A stretch of DNA of 64,000 nucleotides from Agrococcus lahaulensis DSM 17612 (GTDB lineage: Bacteria; Actinomycetota; Actinomycetes; Actinomycetales; Microbacteriaceae), in the NCBI RefSeq assembly GCF_000425105.1, contig NZ_AULD01000006.1:124001-188000 (forward strand), given 5' to 3'. This document shows positions 18,571-50,085 of this stretch, in pieces. The translations under genes were made by a program, and so were the position numbers. Positions within the stretch are counted from its first letter, which is position 1; each line of letters begins with the position of its first letter. The notes under the pieces were generated by a model. That model was not told the DNA's origin. It did no database searches and saw nothing but the letters and a program-made list of their open reading frames with translations.

Positions 18571-20574
18571 GTGGCGAAGCAGATGGATGTCCTGACCGGC
18601 CGGATCCCGGTGCTCGACCTGTACCCGCAGCAGCCGGGCAACACGTTCCCCGCCAAAGCGGTCGAGGGCGACGTGATCCCGTTCCGCGCGGTCGCGTTCC
18701 GCGAGGGACACGACCGCATCGGCGTGACGCTCGTGCTGCGCTCCCCCTCGGGGCGGGAGCGGCGGGTGCCGATGGAGCCCCTGCTCGACGGCTTCGACCG
18801 CTGGCAGGCGCTCGCGCAGGTCGACGAGCGCGGCACGTGGCGATGGCACGTCGAGTCGTGGGCCGACGAGTGGGCGACGTGGCACCACAACGCCGAGATC
18901 AAGATCCCGGCCGGCATCGACACCGAGCTCATGGCGACGATCGGCGCGCAGCTGCTGACGCGCGCGGCCGGCATCGCGACCGGCGCGGACCGGACGGCCC
19001 TCACGCGCGCGGCAAAGGCGATCGGCGACGACCGCACGCCGATCCTGGAGCGCTGGGCCGCGGTCAACGACCCCGCCCTCCTCGAGGCCGTCGACCGCAA
19101 CCGTCCGCGGTCGCTCGAGACCGCATCCGCCGAGCTCGAGCTACGCGTCGAGCGCACGCGGGCGGCCGTCGGCGCCTGGTACGAGTTCTTCCCGCGCTCC
19201 GAGGGCGCCGAGCGGCGCAGCGACGGCTCCTGGCGCTCCGGCACGTTCGAGACCGCCGCGAAGCGCCTCCCGGCCGTCAAGGCGATGGGCTTCGACGTGC
19301 TGTACCTGCCGCCCGTGCACCCGATCGGCGAGGTCAACCGCAAGGGCCGCAACAACACCCTCACGCCGCAGCCGGGCGACCCGGGCAGCCCGTGGGCGAT
19401 CGGCTCGAAGCACGGCGGTCACGACGCGATCCACCCGGACCTCGGCACGATCGACGACTTCCGCGCGTTCGTGGCGAAGGCGGCGGATGCCGGGCTCGAG
19501 GTCGCGATGGACCTCGCCCTCCAGGCCGCGCCCGACCACCCGTGGGTCGCCGAGCATCCTGAGTGGTTCACGACCCTCCCCGACGGCTCGATCGCGTTCG
19601 CCGAGAACCCGCCGAAGAAGTACCAGGACATCTACCCCGTCAACTTCGACAACGACCCCGAGGGGATCGTCGCCGAGGTGCGGCGCATCATCGACCAGTG
19701 GATCGCGTGCGGCGTGCGCATCTTCCGCGTCGACAACCCGCACACGAAGCCGCTGTGGTTCTGGGAGCGCATCATCCGCGAGGTGAACGAGGAGCACGGC
19801 GACATCGTCTTCCTCGCCGAGGCGTTCACGCGGCCCGCGGTCATGCAGGCGCTCGGCAAGGTCGGCTTCCAGCAGTCCTACACGTACTTCGCCTGGCGCA
19901 ACACGAAGGCCGAGCTCGAGGAGTACCTGCGGGAGGTCACGGGCGAGCAGGCCGCGTGGTTCAAGCCCGCGTTCTGGGTCAACACGCCCGACATCCTCAC
20001 CGAGTACCTGCAGTTCGGCGGCGTGCCGGCGTTCAAGGTGCGCGCGGCGATCGCCTCGACGGCCGTGCCGACGTGGGGCATGTACGCGGGCTACGAGCTC
20101 ATCGAGGCGGTCGCGCGGCCCGGCGCCGAGGAGGCGATCGACAACGAGAAGTACGAGTACAAGCCGCGCGACTGGGAGCAGGCGGAGCGCAACGGCACGA
20201 CGATCGCGCCGTACATCACGCGCCTCAACGAGATCCGCGCGCAGCACCCGGCGATCCGGCAGCTGTGGGCGCTCGACGTGCACTGGTCGGACGACGACGC
20301 GATCCTCGTCTACTCGAAGCGCGTCGAGGGCCGCTTCACGGAGTCGGGCGAGGACGACACGGTCATCGTCGTCGCGAACGTCGACCCGCACTCGGCGCGC
20401 CAGACGACGGTGCACCTCGACCTCACGAAGCTCGGCCTGAAGCCCGGCGACCGGTTCGAGGCGCACGACCTCATCACCGGCGAGACCTGGACGTGGAGCG
20501 ACCACAACTTCGTGCGGCTCGACGCCTTCGTGGAGCCGGCGCACATCATCCACGTACGACGATCGGAGGCATGA
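18571..20574 (+). CDS. glgE: Alpha-1,4-glucan:maltose-1-phosphate maltosyltransferase
   Basis: This 667-aa GH13_3 enzyme extends alpha-glucan with maltose-1-phosphate. The N-terminal domain opens with GRIPVLDLYPQQPGNTFPAK. The catalytic nucleophile is D388 in FRVDNPHTKP and the acid/base is E417 in LAEAFTRP; KKYQDIYPVNFDN is also GlgE-specific. The GTG at 18571 was chosen because TAGGTT ends 6 nt upstream; a GTG at 18565 is in frame. The stop overlaps the glgB start. The usual partners treS and pep2, which make maltose-1-phosphate, are not in this window, so the donor may come from elsewhere or from a GlgM-type transferase. Confidence 0.97.
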   Translation: MAKQMDVLTGRIPVLDLYPQQPGNTFPAKAVEGDVIPFRAVAFREGHDRIGVTLVLRSPSGRERRVPMEPLLDGFDRWQALAQVDERGTWRWHVESWADEWATWHHNAEIKIPAGIDTELMATIGAQLLTRAAGIATGADRTALTRAAKAIGDDRTPILERWAAVNDPALLEAVDRNRPRSLETASAELELRVERTRAAVGAWYEFFPRSEGAERRSDGSWRSGTFETAAKRLPAVKAMGFDVLYLPPVHPIGEVNRKGRNNTLTPQPGDPGSPWAIGSKHGGHDAIHPDLGTIDDFRAFVAKAADAGLEVAMDLALQAAPDHPWVAEHPEWFTTLPDGSIAFAENPPKKYQDIYPVNFDNDPEGIVAEVRRIIDQWIACGVRIFRVDNPHTKPLWFWERIIREVNEEHGDIVFLAEAFTRPAVMQALGKVGFQQSYTYFAWRNTKAELEEYLREVTGEQAAWFKPAFWVNTPDILTEYLQFGGVPAFKVRAAIASTAVPTWGMYAGYELIEAVARPGAEEAIDNEKYEYKPRDWEQAERNGTTIAPYITRLNEIRAQHPAIRQLWALDVHWSDDDAILVYSKRVEGRFTESGEDDTVIVVANVDPHSARQTTVHLDLTKLGLKPGDRFEAHDLITGETWTWSDHNFVRLDAFVEPAHIIHVRRSEA

Positions 20575-22772
20575 TGCTCGACGACGCAACCCTCCGCCGC
20601 CTCGCCGAGGGCGCGCATCCGCTGCCCCACGACCTGCTCGGCGCGCATCCGATCGACGCCGACACGCACCTCGTGCGCGCCGTGCGCCACCTCGCCGACG
20701 CCGTCGCGGTCGTGGGCGAGGCCGAGACGCCCATGGCGCACCTCGGGCACGGGGTGTGGGAGGCGACCGTGACCGGCCCCATCCGCCCCTACCGCCTGCG
20801 CACGACGTACGGCGACGGCGGCTCGTGGGAGTCGGAGGACCCGTACCGCTTCACGCCGACGCTCGGCGAGCTCGATCTGCACCTGTGGCGCGAGGGCCGG
20901 CACGAGCAGGCGTGGAAGGTGCTCGGCTCGCGGCTGCGCGAGCACGAGGGGGTGCGGGGCGCCGCGTTCGCGGTCTGGGCGCCCAACGCGCACGCGGTGC
21001 GCATCATCGGCGACTTCAACGACTGGGTCGGCCGCGGCCACGCGATGCGATCGATGGGCGCGAGCGGCGTCTGGGAGCTGTTCGTGCCGGGCGAGCTCGA
21101 GCACGCCGCCTACAAGTACGAGATCCTCACCGACCACGGCTGGGTGACGCGCGCCGACCCGATGGCGCGCTACACCGAGGTGCCGCCCGCGACCGCGTCG
21201 AAGATCGGCACGAGCCGCTTCGCGTGGAGCGATGACGAGTGGATGCGGTCCCGGGCCGCGCGGGACCCCCACAACTCCCCCATGTCGGTCTACGAGCTGC
21301 ACTTCGGCTCGTGGCGGCCGGGCCTCGACTACCGCGAGATGGCCGACGCGCTCATCGAGCACCTCGAGGTCACGGGCTTCACGCACGTCGAGTTCATGCC
21401 GCTCGCCGAGCACCCCTTCGGCGGCTCGTGGGGCTACCAGGTGACCGGCTACTACGCGCCGACGAGCCGCTTCGGCCACCCCGACGACCTGCGCTACCTC
21501 ATCGACCGGCTGCACCGCGCCGGCTACGGCGTGATCATGGACTGGGTGCCTGGCCACTTCCCGAAGGACGAGTGGGCGCTCGCGCGCTTCGACGGCCGGC
21601 CGCTCTACGAGCACCCCGACCCGCGACGCGGCGACCAGCCCGACTGGGGCACGCACGTGTTCGACTTCGGCCGGCCGGAGGTGAAGAACTTCCTCGTCGC
21701 GAACGCCGTCTACTGGATGGAGGAGTTCCACATCGACGGGCTGCGCGTCGACGCGGTCGCCTCGATGCTCTACCTCGACTACTCGCGCAAGGACGGCGAG
21801 TGGCTGCCGAACGTGCATGGCGGGCGCGAGCACCTCGAGGCGATCTCGCTGCTGCAGGAGGTCAACGCCACCGTCTACCGCCGCTGCCCCGGCATCGTCA
21901 TGATCGCCGAGGAGTCGACCTCGTGGCCGGGCGTCACGAAGCCGACCGACGTCGACGGGCTCGGCTTCGGGCTCAAGTGGAACATGGGCTGGATGCACGA
22001 CACGCTCCAGTACATGGCGGTCGATCCGCTGTACCGCTCGCACCACCACGGCGACATCACGTTCTCGTTCCTCTACGCGTTCTCGGAGCAGTTCGTGCTG
22101 CCGATCAGCCACGACGAGGTCGTGCACGGCAAGGGGTCGCTGCTGAACAAGATGCCGGGCGACCAGTGGCAGAAGCTCGCGTCGGTGCGCGCCTACCTGA
22201 CGTTCATGTGGGCGCACCCCGGCAAGCAGCTGCTGTTCATGGGGCAGGAGTTCGGGCAGCCGAGCGAGTGGAGCGAGGCGCGCGGCCTCGACTGGTGGAT
22301 CCTCGACCAGCCGGTGCACCAGGGCCTCATGTCGCTCGTCGGGCAGCTCAACCGCGTCTACCGCGAGACCGAGGCGCTCTGGCTGCGCGACAACGAGCCG
22401 GGCGGCTTCGAATGGATCGACGGCGGCAACTCCTCCGACAACGTCGTGGCGTTCCTGCGCTGGGGCGCCGACCGCGACCCGGTCGCGGCGATCGTCAACT
22501 TCTCGGGTCGCCCGATCGAGGGCTACCGGATGGGGCTGCCGTTCGCGGGCGAGTGGGAGGAGGTCGTGAACTCCGACGCGGTGGAGTTCGGCGGCTCCGG
22601 CGTCGGCAACCTCGGCACCGTCCACGCGGTCGACGAGCCGTGGGGCGGCCGGCCCGCGTCGGCGACGATCACGATCCCGCCGCTCGCGGGCCTGCTCCTG
22701 AAGCCGAAGGCAGCGCCCGTCTCCGCCCCGGCCGCTGCCGCGAACGAGGCGACCGCCTCCCCCACGAAGTGA
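20571..22772 (+). CDS. glgB: 1,4-alpha-glucan branching enzyme
   Basis: This 733-aa GH13_9 enzyme makes alpha-1,6 branches. Two N-terminal CBM48-type modules (GAHPIDADTHLVRAVRH, then AFAVWAPNAHAVRIIGDFN) precede the barrel. The nucleophile is D394 in GLRVDAVASMLYLDYSR and the acid/base is E447 in MIAEESTSWPGV; SHDEVVHGKGS follows. The start codon overlaps the glgE stop (ATGATG, with a GGAGG ribosome binding site), so GlgE and GlgB are made together, as expected for the GlgE pathway. A low-complexity Ala/Pro tail ends the protein, directly before a large repeat array. Confidence 0.97.
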   Translation: MMLDDATLRRLAEGAHPLPHDLLGAHPIDADTHLVRAVRHLADAVAVVGEAETPMAHLGHGVWEATVTGPIRPYRLRTTYGDGGSWESEDPYRFTPTLGELDLHLWREGRHEQAWKVLGSRLREHEGVRGAAFAVWAPNAHAVRIIGDFNDWVGRGHAMRSMGASGVWELFVPGELEHAAYKYEILTDHGWVTRADPMARYTEVPPATASKIGTSRFAWSDDEWMRSRAARDPHNSPMSVYELHFGSWRPGLDYREMADALIEHLEVTGFTHVEFMPLAEHPFGGSWGYQVTGYYAPTSRFGHPDDLRYLIDRLHRAGYGVIMDWVPGHFPKDEWALARFDGRPLYEHPDPRRGDQPDWGTHVFDFGRPEVKNFLVANAVYWMEEFHIDGLRVDAVASMLYLDYSRKDGEWLPNVHGGREHLEAISLLQEVNATVYRRCPGIVMIAEESTSWPGVTKPTDVDGLGFGLKWNMGWMHDTLQYMAVDPLYRSHHHGDITFSFLYAFSEQFVLPISHDEVVHGKGSLLNKMPGDQWQKLASVRAYLTFMWAHPGKQLLFMGQEFGQPSEWSEARGLDWWILDQPVHQGLMSLVGQLNRVYRETEALWLRDNEPGGFEWIDGGNSSDNVVAFLRWGADRDPVAAIVNFSGRPIEGYRMGLPFAGEWEEVVNSDAVEFGGSGVGNLGTVHAVDEPWGGRPASATITIPPLAGLLLKPKAAPVSAPAAAANEATASPTK

Positions 22773-22790
22773 CCGCCGCCACCCGCGTCC

Positions 22791-23220
22791 GAGTGGCGTC
22801 GCCCGCTCGTGAGTGGCGCCTCCCGCACGTGAGTGGCGCCTCCCGCGTCTGAGTGGCGCCTCCCGCGTCTGAGTGGCGCCTCCCGCGTCTGAGTGGCGCC
22901 TCCCGCGTCTGAGTGGTCACGTCCGCGTCTGACCGGTCACTTCCGCGTCTGACCGGTCACTTCCGCGTCTGAGTGGTCACTTCCGCGTCTGAGTGGTCAC
23001 TTCCGCGTCTGAGTGGTCACTCCGCGCGTGGACGGTCGATTGGAGCGCGAACGACTGCTCACGTGCAGGCGTGGCCGAGCCCATCCCGGGCTGACCACTC
23101 ACATCCCGGACTGACCACTCACGCGCTGGACTGACCGCTCACGCGCTGAGTTGACCACTCACCTGCCGCAGGCACCACTCACCTGCCGGAGGCGCCACTC
23201 ACCTGCCGGAGGCGCCACTC
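22791..23220. repeat. Mirrored tandem array of 20-bp repeats between convergent genes
   Basis: The left arm has twelve units in strict 20-bp steps from 22791: six with the core GAGTGGCG(C/T)C, then GA(G/C)(T/C)GGTCAC-core units from 22911. A spacer of about 60 bp (23031-23090) follows. The right arm, from 23091, has seven units in the opposite orientation with the same 20-bp step: inner units read CTGACCACTCAC and outer units read GGCGCCACTCAC. The variant types are therefore arranged symmetrically (outer GCC type, inner TCAC type). This fills the 472-bp gap between glgB and the thioredoxin-TPR gene. No open reading frame of note is seen in it. Confidence 0.93.
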
Positions 23221-23244
23221 GAGCCGCAGCCGGCCCGGCGGGCG

Positions 23245-24183
23245 TCAGTAGAGGAGGGCGGTGAGGCGCTTGCGGGCCGCGACCACGCGCGGGTCGTCGA
23301 GGCCGACGATCTCGAAGTGGTCGAGGAGCCGCAGTCGCACGTCCTGCTTCTCGTCGCCCGACAGGGTCGCCATGAGCTCGAGCAGCCGCAGGAACGCATC
23401 CTCGACGTGGCCGCCCGAGAGGTCGAGGTCGGCCGCGAGCATCTGCGCCTCGACGTCGCGCGGATCCGCGGCCGCGGCCGCGCGCACCTCGTCGGCGCTC
23501 TTGCCCTGCAGGCGCGAGAGCAGGCTCACCTGCGCGAGGCCGGCGATCGCCTCCGCGTCGCGCGGGTTCTGCGCGATCGCCTTCTCGAACGCCGCGATCG
23601 CGGCCGGCAGGTCGCCGGTCTCGAGCGCGTCGTACGCCTCCTGGTGCAGCGGCGGCACCGGCTCGAGCGCGGGCTCCGCGGGAGCCTCCTCGCCGTCGCC
23701 GACGGGGACGCGCCCCGTGATGCCCTGCTCCTCGGCGAACGCGAGCACCTGCTCGAGGACGTCCTTCACCTGCTCCTCCGGCAGCGCGCCGGTGAAGAGC
23801 GGCGCCGGCCGGCCCCCGATGACAGCCGCGACCGTCGGGATCGACTGCGCGTTGAACGCCTGCACGAGCTGCGGGTTGGTGTCGGCGTCGACCTTCGCGA
23901 GCACGAGGCGGCCGCCGTGGCCCTCGATGAGGCGCTCGAGCACGGGCGAGAGCTGCTTGCACGGCCCGCACCACTCGGCCCAGATGTCGATGATGACCGG
24001 CACGCGGTTCGAGAGCTCGACGACCTGCGCGAAGTCCGCGTCGGTGACGTCGATGATCGCGCTCGGCACCCCAGCGGGCGCTCCGCCGCTCGCGGGCGCG
24101 GTCACTGGCTGCTCGTGGCGGGCGGCGAGGGCCGACAGGTCGACCGCTCCCCCCATCGACGCTGGCAGTCGAGCCTCCGACAT
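23245..24183 (-). CDS. Thioredoxin-TPR protein, CnoX/YbbN-like
   Basis: This 312-aa protein has a thioredoxin domain (about residues 40-150) with an intact redox motif WCGPC (C72 and C75), and a C-terminal helical region with TPR-like units such as ALETGDLPAAIAAFEKAIAQNP. E. coli CnoX lacks a classical redox pair; the version here keeps CGPC, so oxidoreductase activity is plausible beside the chaperone-like role. The stop-start junction with the upstream large membrane gene is TGATG, implying coupling. Confidence 0.87.
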   Translation of the reverse strand: MSEARLPASMGGAVDLSALAARHEQPVTAPASGGAPAGVPSAIIDVTDADFAQVVELSNRVPVIIDIWAEWCGPCKQLSPVLERLIEGHGGRLVLAKVDADTNPQLVQAFNAQSIPTVAAVIGGRPAPLFTGALPEEQVKDVLEQVLAFAEEQGITGRVPVGDGEEAPAEPALEPVPPLHQEAYDALETGDLPAAIAAFEKAIAQNPRDAEAIAGLAQVSLLSRLQGKSADEVRAAAAADPRDVEAQMLAADLDLSGGHVEDAFLRLLELMATLSGDEKQDVRLRLLDHFEIVGLDDPRVVAARKRLTALLY

Positions 24184-48072: not shown

Positions 48073-49173
48073 GTGCCTGACCTCTCCCCCATCGCCGAGC
48101 GCGCCGCCGCGCCCGAGACCCTCCCCGAGATCACCGCCGGCGACCTGTCGTGGCGCGCCGCGACGATCGACGACGCGCAGCTCGTCGCCGACTTCAACAA
48201 CGCGATGAGCGAGGCCGACGACCTGCCGTTCCGCGAGACGGTCGACGAGGTGCGCGAGGAGCTCGAGGCGCCGTGGGTCGACCTGTCGACGCAATCGATG
48301 CTCGGCCTTGACGACGAGGCGCAGCTGCGCGCCGTGGGCTTCGTCATGACGACGCCCGGCGACGTCCGCACGGTGCGCGCGTTCGTCTCCGGCGGCGTGC
48401 ATCCCGATCGGCGGGGCGAGGGCATCGGCCGCGAGCTGCTCGCGTGGCAGGTCGCGCGCGCCCGGCAGCTGCTGGCAGCCTCCGGCAAGGAGCTGCCCGG
48501 CCGCATCGCCGCCTACGCGGAGGACACCGACACCGCGCGCCACCGCATCTTCGAGCACGCGGGCTTCGCGGCGCGCCGCTACTTCGCCGACCTCAAGCGC
48601 CCGCTCGGCGAGGGCGCGCCGCCCATCCCCGAGGTCGAGCTGAACGGCTCGCTGCGGCTCGCGGACTTCTCCCCCGAGCTCGACGACGCGACCCGGCTCG
48701 CGCACAACGACGCGTTCCGCGACCACTGGGGCAGCGAGCCGCAGACGCCGGAGCAGTGGCAGAGCGGCCGCAGCGAGTTCGCGCCCGAGTGGTCGCACGT
48801 CGTCGTCGACGACTCGCCGGACGTGGAGGCGCTGCTCGCGGACGAGCGGACGGATGCGTCGACGGCCGACGCGCTGCGCGCCGGCGCGCCGCTCGTGGTC
48901 GCGTACGCGTACAACAGCAGGTTCGAGGCCGACTTCGAGGTGCGCGGGTACTCGTTCGGCTACACGGGCCTGCTCGGCACGCGCCGCGCGTACCGCGGCA
49001 GGAAGGCCGCGATCGCGGCGCTCGCCGCGAGCATGCGCTCGTTCGAGGACGCCGGCATGGAGGCCGCGGTGCTCGACGTCGACACCGAGAACCCGAGCGG
49101 CGCGCACGGCCTCTACGCGAGCCTCGGCTACGTCCAGGAGCACGGCTCGCGGATGTACAGCATCGAGCTGTAG
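48073..49173 (+). CDS. Double-GNAT-domain acetyltransferase
   Basis: This 366-aa protein has two GNAT-type halves. The first carries the acetyl-CoA-binding GGVHPDRRGEGIGRELL, and the second carries YTGLLGTRRAYRGRKAAIAALAA with a C-terminal GAHGLYASLGY. Mycothiol synthase (MshD) has a similar two-domain shape, but I cannot claim it on this evidence. TACCCT is 6 nt from the GTG. The stop is followed at once by the second 20-bp repeat array. Confidence 0.85.
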   Translation: MPDLSPIAERAAAPETLPEITAGDLSWRAATIDDAQLVADFNNAMSEADDLPFRETVDEVREELEAPWVDLSTQSMLGLDDEAQLRAVGFVMTTPGDVRTVRAFVSGGVHPDRRGEGIGRELLAWQVARARQLLAASGKELPGRIAAYAEDTDTARHRIFEHAGFAARRYFADLKRPLGEGAPPIPEVELNGSLRLADFSPELDDATRLAHNDAFRDHWGSEPQTPEQWQSGRSEFAPEWSHVVVDDSPDVEALLADERTDASTADALRAGAPLVVAYAYNSRFEADFEVRGYSFGYTGLLGTRRAYRGRKAAIAALAASMRSFEDAGMEAAVLDVDTENPSGAHGLYASLGYVQEHGSRMYSIEL

Positions 49174-49175
49174 CC

Positions 49176-49415
49176 GAGCGGTCACTTCCGCGCCCGAGCG
49201 GTCAGTTCCGCGTTCGAGCGGTCACTTCCGCGCTCGAGCGGTCACTTCCGCGCTCGAGCGGTCACTTCCTGGTGCAGTGACCACTCACAGGCGGAAGTGA
49301 CCACTCACAGACGGAACTGACCACTCACAGACGGAACTGACCACTCACGGGCGGAGCCGACCACTCACGCGCGGAAGTGACCCCTCGCGGGCCGAGATGA
49401 CCGCTCTGCGGGTGG
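49176..49415. repeat. Second mirrored 20-bp repeat array between convergent genes
   Basis: Five direct units in 20-bp steps from 49176 (core GAGCGGTCACTTCCGCG) run straight into about seven inverted units from 49276 (core AGTGACCACTCAC). The central GGTCACT and AGTGACC are perfectly complementary with a 9-nt loop near 49270, so one very long hairpin or cruciform is possible. The unit is the same family as the array at 22791-23220. It fills most of the 252-bp gap between the GNAT and NAD(P)-binding genes. No gene is seen here. Confidence 0.9.
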
Positions 49416-49425
49416 TGGGCGGGCG

Positions 49426-50085
49426 TCAGGCCGCGAGGGAGGCGAGGGCGTCGCGCACCGGGGTGTCACCCGCGTTGCAGCGGATCGAGCGGCGCGTGAC
49501 CGCCGGGTTGTCGACGGTCTCGGCGATGAGGCGGGCGACGGTCGCGCGCGGGATCTCGCCCGACTCGATCGAGCCCTCCGGCTCGTCGACCTCGATGCCC
49601 GTCTCGTCGTCGAGCGTGAGGCCCGACGGCTGCAGGATGACCCAGTCGGCGACGCGCTCGCGGATCGCCTCGTCGACGAGCGCCTTCGCCTCCGCGTACG
49701 CGTAGAACGGCTCGTCCGGCGAGAGGCCGTGCTCGAGGCTCGCGCCGAAGTACGAGACCATCAGGAGCCGCGCGCCCGAGCGGGCCACCGCATCCACGAC
49801 CTTCATCGCCGCATCGCGGTCGACCGCCCACGTGCGCTCGGGGCTCCCGCCTCCGGCGCCCGCCGACCAGACGACGACGTCGAAGCCGTCGAGCAGCTCG
49901 TCGATGCCCGCTTGGTCGAGCGACTCGAGGTCGGCGACGACCGGCTCCGCACCGGTCTGCTGCACGTCGGAGACGTGATCGGCGTTGCGGATGACGGCGT
50001 GGACGGAGTGACCGGCCTCCACGAGCATGGGCTCCGCGAGGAGCGCGACCTTGCCGTGACCGCCGAGGATGAGGATGCGTGCCAT
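49426..50085 (-). CDS. NAD(P)-binding, NmrA/SDR-like protein
   Basis: This 219-aa Rossmann protein has ARILILGGHGKVALL for dinucleotide binding and FDVVVWSAGAGGG, then MVSYFGAS and YAEAKALVDEA, the YxxxK of extended SDRs. It lies downstream of the iron ABC operon with a 33-bp gap, but it has its own leaderless-type promoter (TAGCGT at 50092-50097, 6 nt from ATG). Substrate unknown. Confidence 0.85.
   Translation of the reverse strand: MARILILGGHGKVALLAEPMLVEAGHSVHAVIRNADHVSDVQQTGAEPVVADLESLDQAGIDELLDGFDVVVWSAGAGGGSPERTWAVDRDAAMKVVDAVARSGARLLMVSYFGASLEHGLSPDEPFYAYAEAKALVDEAIRERVADWVILQPSGLTLDDETGIEVDEPEGSIESGEIPRATVARLIAETVDNPAVTRRSIRCNAGDTPVRDALASLAA

Follow-up and report, generated by a model that had tools for sequence, protein, structure and literature searches.

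Inward-facing arrays of a 20-bp unit close behind Agrococcus gene ends: a possible family of REP-like extragenic 3'-end elements

Transposition of the REP-RAYT type accounts for many of the short extragenic repeat families of bacteria. REP elements (PMC3733652, PMC2817692) are extragenic, biased to positions downstream of genes, built of units in opposite orientation and implicated in termination. The RAYT-type gene is described as single-copy, vertically inherited and flanked by inverted repeats (PMC8049555, PMC2817692), and the AbiEi antitoxin of the AbiE type IV toxin-antitoxin system is reported to bind inverted repeats (PMC7319586).

The locus compared here lies between a glgB-like gene (a label taken from the preliminary description) and a convergent thioredoxin gene in the window, which is the whole 64-kb stretch of DNA analysed. 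Its parts, in window coordinates, are:

20574 to 22772, + strand: upstream glgB-like gene, ending 18 bp before the first unit
22791 to 23030, + strand: left arm, 12 units of 20 bp (sequence reading, TRF, unit parser)
22791 to 22910, + strand: outer six units of the left arm, GGCG(C/T)C type (unit parser)
22911 to 23030, + strand: inner six units of the left arm, GGTCA type (unit parser)
23031 to 23080, no strand: spacer of 50 bp separating the arms (parse)
23081 to 23220, - strand: right arm, 7 units (sequence reading, unit parser)
23081 to 23160, - strand: inner four units of the right arm, GGTCA type (unit parser)
23161 to 23220, - strand: outer three units of the right arm, GGCGCC/GGTGCC type (unit parser)
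23245 to 24069, - strand: convergent thioredoxin + TPR gene, ending 24 bp from the right arm

The 12 direct and 7 inverted units counted in the preliminary description between these two genes were confirmed by four concordant parses (sequence reading, repeat search, TRF and unit parser), with exact 20-bp steps in both arms. The unit parser also recovered the variant order given there, with GGCGCC-type units outside and GGTCA-type units inside in both arms. With a 120-nt reference and an identity threshold of 60%, the repeat search returned 11 copies in register, spaced by 20, and inverted arms at 22851-22979 and 23092-23220; TRF returned a period of 20 with 12.0 copies at 22777-23016 and three overlapping period-20 rows within 23082-23220. 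A wider parse held 21 units, 14 on the + strand (the two outermost weak) and 7 on the - strand. Rfam at gathering score gave no match in the 64-kb window.

A 17-mer of the unit, allowing at most 3 mismatches, matched the 64-kb window 15 times (0.54 expected; at least 15 matches in none of 100 shuffles), 6 times in the glgB-thioredoxin array and 9 times in a second array, which lies between another convergent pair:

48073 to 49173, + strand: gene for a GNAT acetyltransferase, ending 2 bp short of the second array
49176 to 49275, + strand: left arm of the second array, 5 units (TRF, parser)
49287 to 49406, - strand: right arm of the second array, 6 units (parser)
49426 to 50085, - strand: convergent NAD(P)-binding protein gene, ending 19 bp from the second array

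A seventh, degenerate - unit of the second array, at 49267, overlaps its left arm. Besides both window arrays, at least 8 further loci carry the array in the 2.68 Mb source genome.

From 15 Agrococcus genomes 100 arrays with 1,372 units were parsed, a lower bound, with at least 100 arrays in the genus. The first parse gave 105 array rows ('+-' 74, '-+' 1, '-+-' 1, '+-+' 1, single 28); five coding-like chain rows were dropped, with chains L262, L147 and L277 removed by hand, leaving the final 100. An earlier set of 43 arrays represents 20 orthologous loci, with the antisense chains at window position 22919 and in L083 and L138 dropped by hand. A two-unit GGTCA pattern matched 12 of 60 genomes including the source, 11 of them Agrococcus, with one match in one other genus. 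A pattern of three GAGYGG cores matched 16 of the 24 genus genomes, with 827 matches against 55 for the reversed control, nearly all of the latter from array-bearing genomes. Several dialects follow the GAGYGG core (GGTCA, GGCGCC, GGCGGC, GGCCA and others), several of which the GGTCA pattern misses. The same repeats occur in records of Agrococcus sp. HG114 and A. pavilionensis RW1.

Family-wide, the GGTCA search matched 12 of 299 genomes, 3 of them Agrococcus and 9 others with one match each (control, 6); matches in other genera of this sample are isolated and near control level. The three-core pattern in a wider sample matched 21 of 398 genomes, 7 of them Agrococcus; because the pattern itself fixes the 20-bp step, matches outside the genus, in genus g71, do not show that this family occurs there. 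Genus g71 (L249, L250, L251, L252) has short 20-bp-step arrays beside CCCTTCGACAAGCTCAGGGACCG elements in intergenic gaps. Massilia and Opitutaceae had single matches, and viral contigs had none to the GGTCA pattern. No publication on these arrays was among the matches listed in a literature search that covered subscription journals thinly.

Among 96 placeable arrays, 64 lay in convergent, 28 in codirectional and 4 in divergent gaps, as compared with 19, 83 and 67 in a background of 169 gaps (minimum length 100 bp) drawn from the window together with 38 stretches of DNA from six further Agrococcus genomes (p ~3e-21, with arrays at orthologous loci not independent; gene calls by the author's own codon-score caller). 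The gap held at least one gene 3' end for 92 of the 96. The end of two-armed codirectional arrays that faces the 3' end of the upstream gene was the closer one in 18/21, and the outer unit of convergent arrays lay a median of 34 bp from the gene end (at most 100 bp in 110 of 128). The placement between convergent genes remarked on in the preliminary description thus extends to that of a 3'-end element, with 64/96 arrays in convergent and 4/96 in divergent gaps.

What the data show is the layout of the element, its inward polarity, the step of 20 bp, the position at gene 3' ends, retention at orthologous loci, arms that are not matched, and terminator-like hairpins at some orthologous sites free of the array. 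The reading preferred here, tentatively and at somewhat less than an even chance, is that the arrays form a genus-level family of REP-like elements lying outside genes at their 3' ends, which would stop or insulate transcription in both directions. The element would consist of two polar tandem arrays of the 20-bp unit placed head to head close behind stop codons, so that RNA polymerase exiting either convergent gene would meet an identical polar string of units in sense, and transcription would putatively stop at the array. Against this stop, 3'-end placement is also typical of selfish repeats, which are tolerated there, and 4/96 arrays fall in divergent gaps (author's gene calls).

Both arms had at least 3 units in 73 of the 100 arrays, and one arm was recognisable in the other 27. 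All 73 two-armed arrays read '+ then -', with the units pointing inward. Unit steps were exactly 20 in 492 of 503 cases (43-array set) and the span of an arm was an exact multiple of 20 in 164 of 177 arms (larger set); the step that had been likened to about two helical turns is thus kept. The unit opens with an asymmetric core, GAGYGG, followed by a variable linker. Within arms, 1-3% of units deviated from the consensus of their arm at core positions 1, 2, 5 and 6, and 8-28% did so at positions 10-20; conservation of the core is partly made by the parser, which required at least 5 of 6 core letters, and the argument rests on arm contiguity. Linkers were homogenised within the arm (within-arm identity at positions 7-20, 0.732). 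The palindromic site AGTG-N2-CACT (AGTGNNCACT), proposed for each unit as a half-palindrome, was present in 80 of 1,372 units overall and in 3 of 21 in the glgB-thioredoxin array (wider parse), and the idea fails because the core is asymmetric. PhoP direct-repeat boxes, whose step is 11 bp, were rejected as a counterpart of the 20-bp step.

Arm-to-arm phase modulo 20 was non-random (R 0.49, p = 0.001, 29 arrays; p = 0.014 with one array per locus, n = 18; 14 periods tried), and this may reflect decayed units in the spacer. Phase, the strict 20-bp step and the asymmetric, near-invariant core all agree with arrays that bind an architectural or nucleoid protein, which would form a filament or a DNA-level insulator with no role at transcript ends. 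That explanation carries a small chance, since the strong 3'-end bias and the near absence from divergent gaps would be unexpected of a general site, and the phase may be no more than decayed spacer units. Under the preferred bidirectional stop or insulator, the asymmetric core would likewise probably be read by a protein and not be kept for RNA pairing.

The preliminary description had further proposed that gene conversion or pairing keeps the two arms matched. A cruciform or hairpin with arms matched by gene conversion is consistent with the mirrored variant order at the glgB-thioredoxin locus and its close orthologs, with an RNA fold of the whole array (22773-23244) far stabler than shuffles (z -10.5), and with opposite arms slightly more alike than permuted at positions 7-10 (0.760 vs. 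0.733). It is nevertheless very improbable. Opposite arms of the same locus had an identity of 0.585 at positions 7-20, as compared with 0.591 when permuted within the genome (n = 72), which leaves the linkers unmatched, and 34 of 46 comparisons placed the orthologous arm of another species closer than the own opposite arm. Real arm pairs did not form more stable RNA duplexes than swapped pairs (-110.1 vs. -113.8 kcal/mol, n = 30). Sense and antisense arms folded equally well (sense better in 35/69). Selection for an RNA hairpin was rejected on this lack of sense/antisense bias and on swapped arms pairing as well; there is no evidence in favour of pairing as a selected property, and the equal folding and the absence of selection for arm complementarity count against the bidirectional stop also.

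Of 33 arrays, 17 scored higher for mirrored than for reversed variant order (Wilcoxon p = 0.54), and mirrored order was rejected as a family rule. It was prominent at the glgB-thioredoxin locus, its ortholog L146, the small array L137 and, by eye, the G016 ortholog; the symmetric order was thus seen again in relatives at L146 and the G016 ortholog, and did not generalise. At positions 10-20 opposite arms were less alike than permuted (0.524 vs. 0.541, fraction 0.0025), and no deficit was seen in few-contig genomes (0.544 vs. 0.549, n = 35). A tendency of arms to avoid a match, suggested by the first 33 arrays, was rejected, being weaker in the larger set and absent in few-contig genomes; the apparent mismatch may stem from perfect inverted repeats being lost in assembly. 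Mutual templating of inner units (inner-inner 0.494 vs. outer-outer 0.644) was confounded by the start of the unit frame and left unused.

The strong RNA fold of the whole array (z -10.5) agrees with the bidirectional stop. No T-tailed terminator was predicted in 22500-23500, which counts against it. As part of that reading, the array would replace or back up a hairpin terminator. Of 55 orthologous rows free of the array, 18 had a single hairpin with 11 pairs or more (10/19 at the glgB-thioredoxin site, with L111, which has a few diverged units, set aside; 2/19 at the GNAT site; 6/17 at the L071 locus), and in the other 37 the gap was short, was filled by a different repeat family or had no hairpin of this size. 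Seven of eight array-bearing rows (L087-L089, L092, L153-L156, which include both window arrays) were without a hairpin of at least 11 pairs. A hairpin stood alongside the array in L092, L184 and L185, and that of L167 was the array's own dyad. Replacement of a hairpin by the array is not the rule, because 37/55 array-free rows are without one and some array rows have one.

Stems of the hairpins resembled the GGCGCC-type unit beyond shuffled stems (p < 0.05) in 7 of 18 and the TCA-type unit in none of 18; half of the G010 hairpin, GAGAGGCGCCTCCCGCACC, almost equals the unit. Only 13 of 60 arrays had a dyad hairpin exceeding shuffles; this and the lack of resemblance to the TCA-type unit count against the preferred reading. 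Arms at one locus in distant species end inward in hairpins of the unit and its inverse. The arrays may have arisen from terminator-like hairpins whose two halves were each copied in tandem, in which case the inward mirror layout would be automatic.

Orthologous arrays were identified through flanking genes with proteins 64-100% identical, and the arrays are therefore old and inherited in place. Copy numbers vary freely between orthologous arrays. In L167 (323-1222, G012) one arm has about 45 near-identical 20-bp units (GACTGGCGGCTCCCGTCGCT) vs. a degenerate arm of 11 units, and recent tandem growth or rapid slippage is therefore indicated. This near-identical arm and the free copy numbers are what neutral tandem-slippage debris without function would produce. 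Such debris has quite a slim chance of explaining the family, given the uniform inward orientation and a core and 20-bp step kept at orthologous loci of diverged species.

Other repeats were seen at the same sites. In other Agrococcus species a different family (GTAGGTCGAGGAGCGCGC ... CGTCACGAGACC and kin) fills the glgB-thioredoxin gap (L097, L102, L105, L106 and L107) and the GNAT gap (L163). L186 (G001, L071 locus) has one more repeat in a convergent gap, marked by GAGTGTCG / CGACACTC motifs.

Ten parsed arrays had arms 0.7-2 kb apart, all at one locus with the order ANTAR response regulator, arm, gene of about 293 codons, arm, 4HBT thioesterase. The source-genome copy of this nuclease-like gene is L066 (G000:C5 near 108.1 kb), and further copies are in L058 (5328-6206), L077, L275 and orthologs. 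At the ANTAR-thioesterase locus, checked in 18 of the 24 genus genomes (all but G003, G007, G010, G015, G019 and G022), the gene was present in 16, with flanking units on both sides, recognised by pattern or by eye, in 16/16. A synteny check of seven further genomes gave the gene and flanking units in G008, G009, G017, G021 and G023 (degenerate and read by eye in G008, G009, G017 and G023), and neither gene nor arms at the locus in G002 and G013. No GAGYGG array was found in these two genomes, and stretches of only 100 and 160 kb of them were shown to be free of the GATTGG dialect. The GGTCA pattern misses the GGCGCC dialect at this locus.

The nuclease-like protein matched DUF559 at 7.6e-5, just over the cut-off, and MTES_1575 below its cut-off; its residues from about 7 to 115-137 matched AbiEi models weakly, and its C-terminus matched solved structures 3hrl (0.013) and 3r3p (0.058) not significantly. 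The fold of DUF559 endonucleases is Vsr-like. No stop occurred in the matched stretch of 15 gene copies (dN/dS 0.12-0.20, six pairs), and residues D221, E232, D234, H238 and R250 of the C-terminal part were invariant. The gene was broken in G006, a genome with many arrays. A 40% identical paralog, L067 (G000:C1 near 338.9 kb), had no array within the stretch read.

A GATTGG unit was found in G009, G021 and G023, with a step of 20 bp again in G021, whose arms were found via the ANTAR-thioesterase locus and not via the 20-bp pattern. In 600 kb of the distant species G021, with 90 convergent pairs, the only runs of at least 3 units and the only GATTGG hairpins flank the nuclease-like gene. Ten runs of at least 2 GABYGG at spacing 20 were found there, two of which belong to the locus (control, 3), along with a single unrelated 20-bp tandem. 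With arrays as dense as in G016, some 2.4-2.6 further G021 arrays would be expected per 600 kb, and none was found (p ~0.09, author's estimate). Searches of 120 kb in G009 and 240 kb in G023 gave no GATTGG run.

These observations bear on a rival reading, that the repeats are mobile or have been domesticated, in analogy to REPIN-RAYT. The AbiEi/Vsr-like nuclease would then recognise the unit and drive the copying or spread of arrays, and 3'-end placement would reflect tolerance and no part in termination. Such a family is possible, on the unlikely side. It agrees with the confinement of all wide-spaced arrays to the nuclease locus, with the joint presence of gene and units in 16/18 genomes and their joint absence from G002 and G013, with the 15 stop-free copies, their dN/dS and the five invariant residues, and with the restriction of longer runs to this locus in G021. 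It is weakened by the broken gene in array-rich G006, by absence data from two genomes with GATTGG excluded in 100 and 160 kb only, by the shorter runs and unrelated tandem in G021 and the p of ~0.09 for finding no further arrays, by the weak family assignment, and by the paralog without an array. The G021 flanks, as the only arrays in 600 kb, suggest that a REPIN-RAYT-like partnership may have arisen from unrelated parts, and the nuclease-like gene may be the source of the arrays.

The two readings could be joined in a repeat-plus-nuclease system paralleling REPIN-RAYT, which is rather unlikely. A vertically inherited protein that joins an AbiEi-like DNA-binding domain to a nuclease of Vsr/DUF559 type, and whose gene is bracketed by arrays, would read GAGYGG (or GATTGG), would have seeded arrays from its own flanks and would keep them copied, phased and species-specific, with the host using the arrays as two-way transcription boundaries. 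Under the preferred reading of a bidirectional stop or insulator, too, the resident nuclease-like protein would be the natural candidate reader of the core. The Agrococcus arrays would offer a tractable case for how actinobacteria separate convergent transcription units.

As compared with bidirectional intrinsic terminators, the arrays share the position in convergent gaps, the inverted symmetry and the stable RNA fold, but they have no T tail, extend over hundreds of bp and have tandem arms that are not matched. Like AbiEi, the resident protein has a weak N-terminal model match; unlike AbiEi, it has a nuclease-like C-terminus, and this resembles Vsr-like/DUF559 endonucleases, including the mobile-intron protein of PDB 3r3p, in a C-terminal match with structure matches that are not significant.

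Like REP, BIME and REPIN, the arrays are extragenic and downstream of genes (92/96), with units in opposite orientation. Unlike REP and BIME, the unit is not a palindrome of 20-40 bp, and long same-strand blocks take the place of alternating units. Unlike REP, the six dialect consensus units begin with GAGYGG and have no GTAG or CGTC tag; CGTC occurs at positions 16-19, in the variable linker, in most left-arm units of the window. The Y1 tyrosine transposase PF01797 was found in none of the 24 genus genomes (controls positive in 5/14). With no palindromic unit, no tag and no Y1 transposase, the arrays are therefore of the extragenic-repeat kind and not a REP. They resemble REPIN-RAYT in form, with a vertically inherited gene flanked by inverted repeats, but the gene is an unrelated, nuclease-like one, and unlike the single-copy RAYT it has the 40% identical paralog L067 in the source genome, only the flanked gene being single-copy. 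If true, a family that differs in its unit and its resident enzyme, and that combines a constant inward arrangement with fast-changing dialects, would mean that systems of this kind can arise repeatedly in bacterial genomes.
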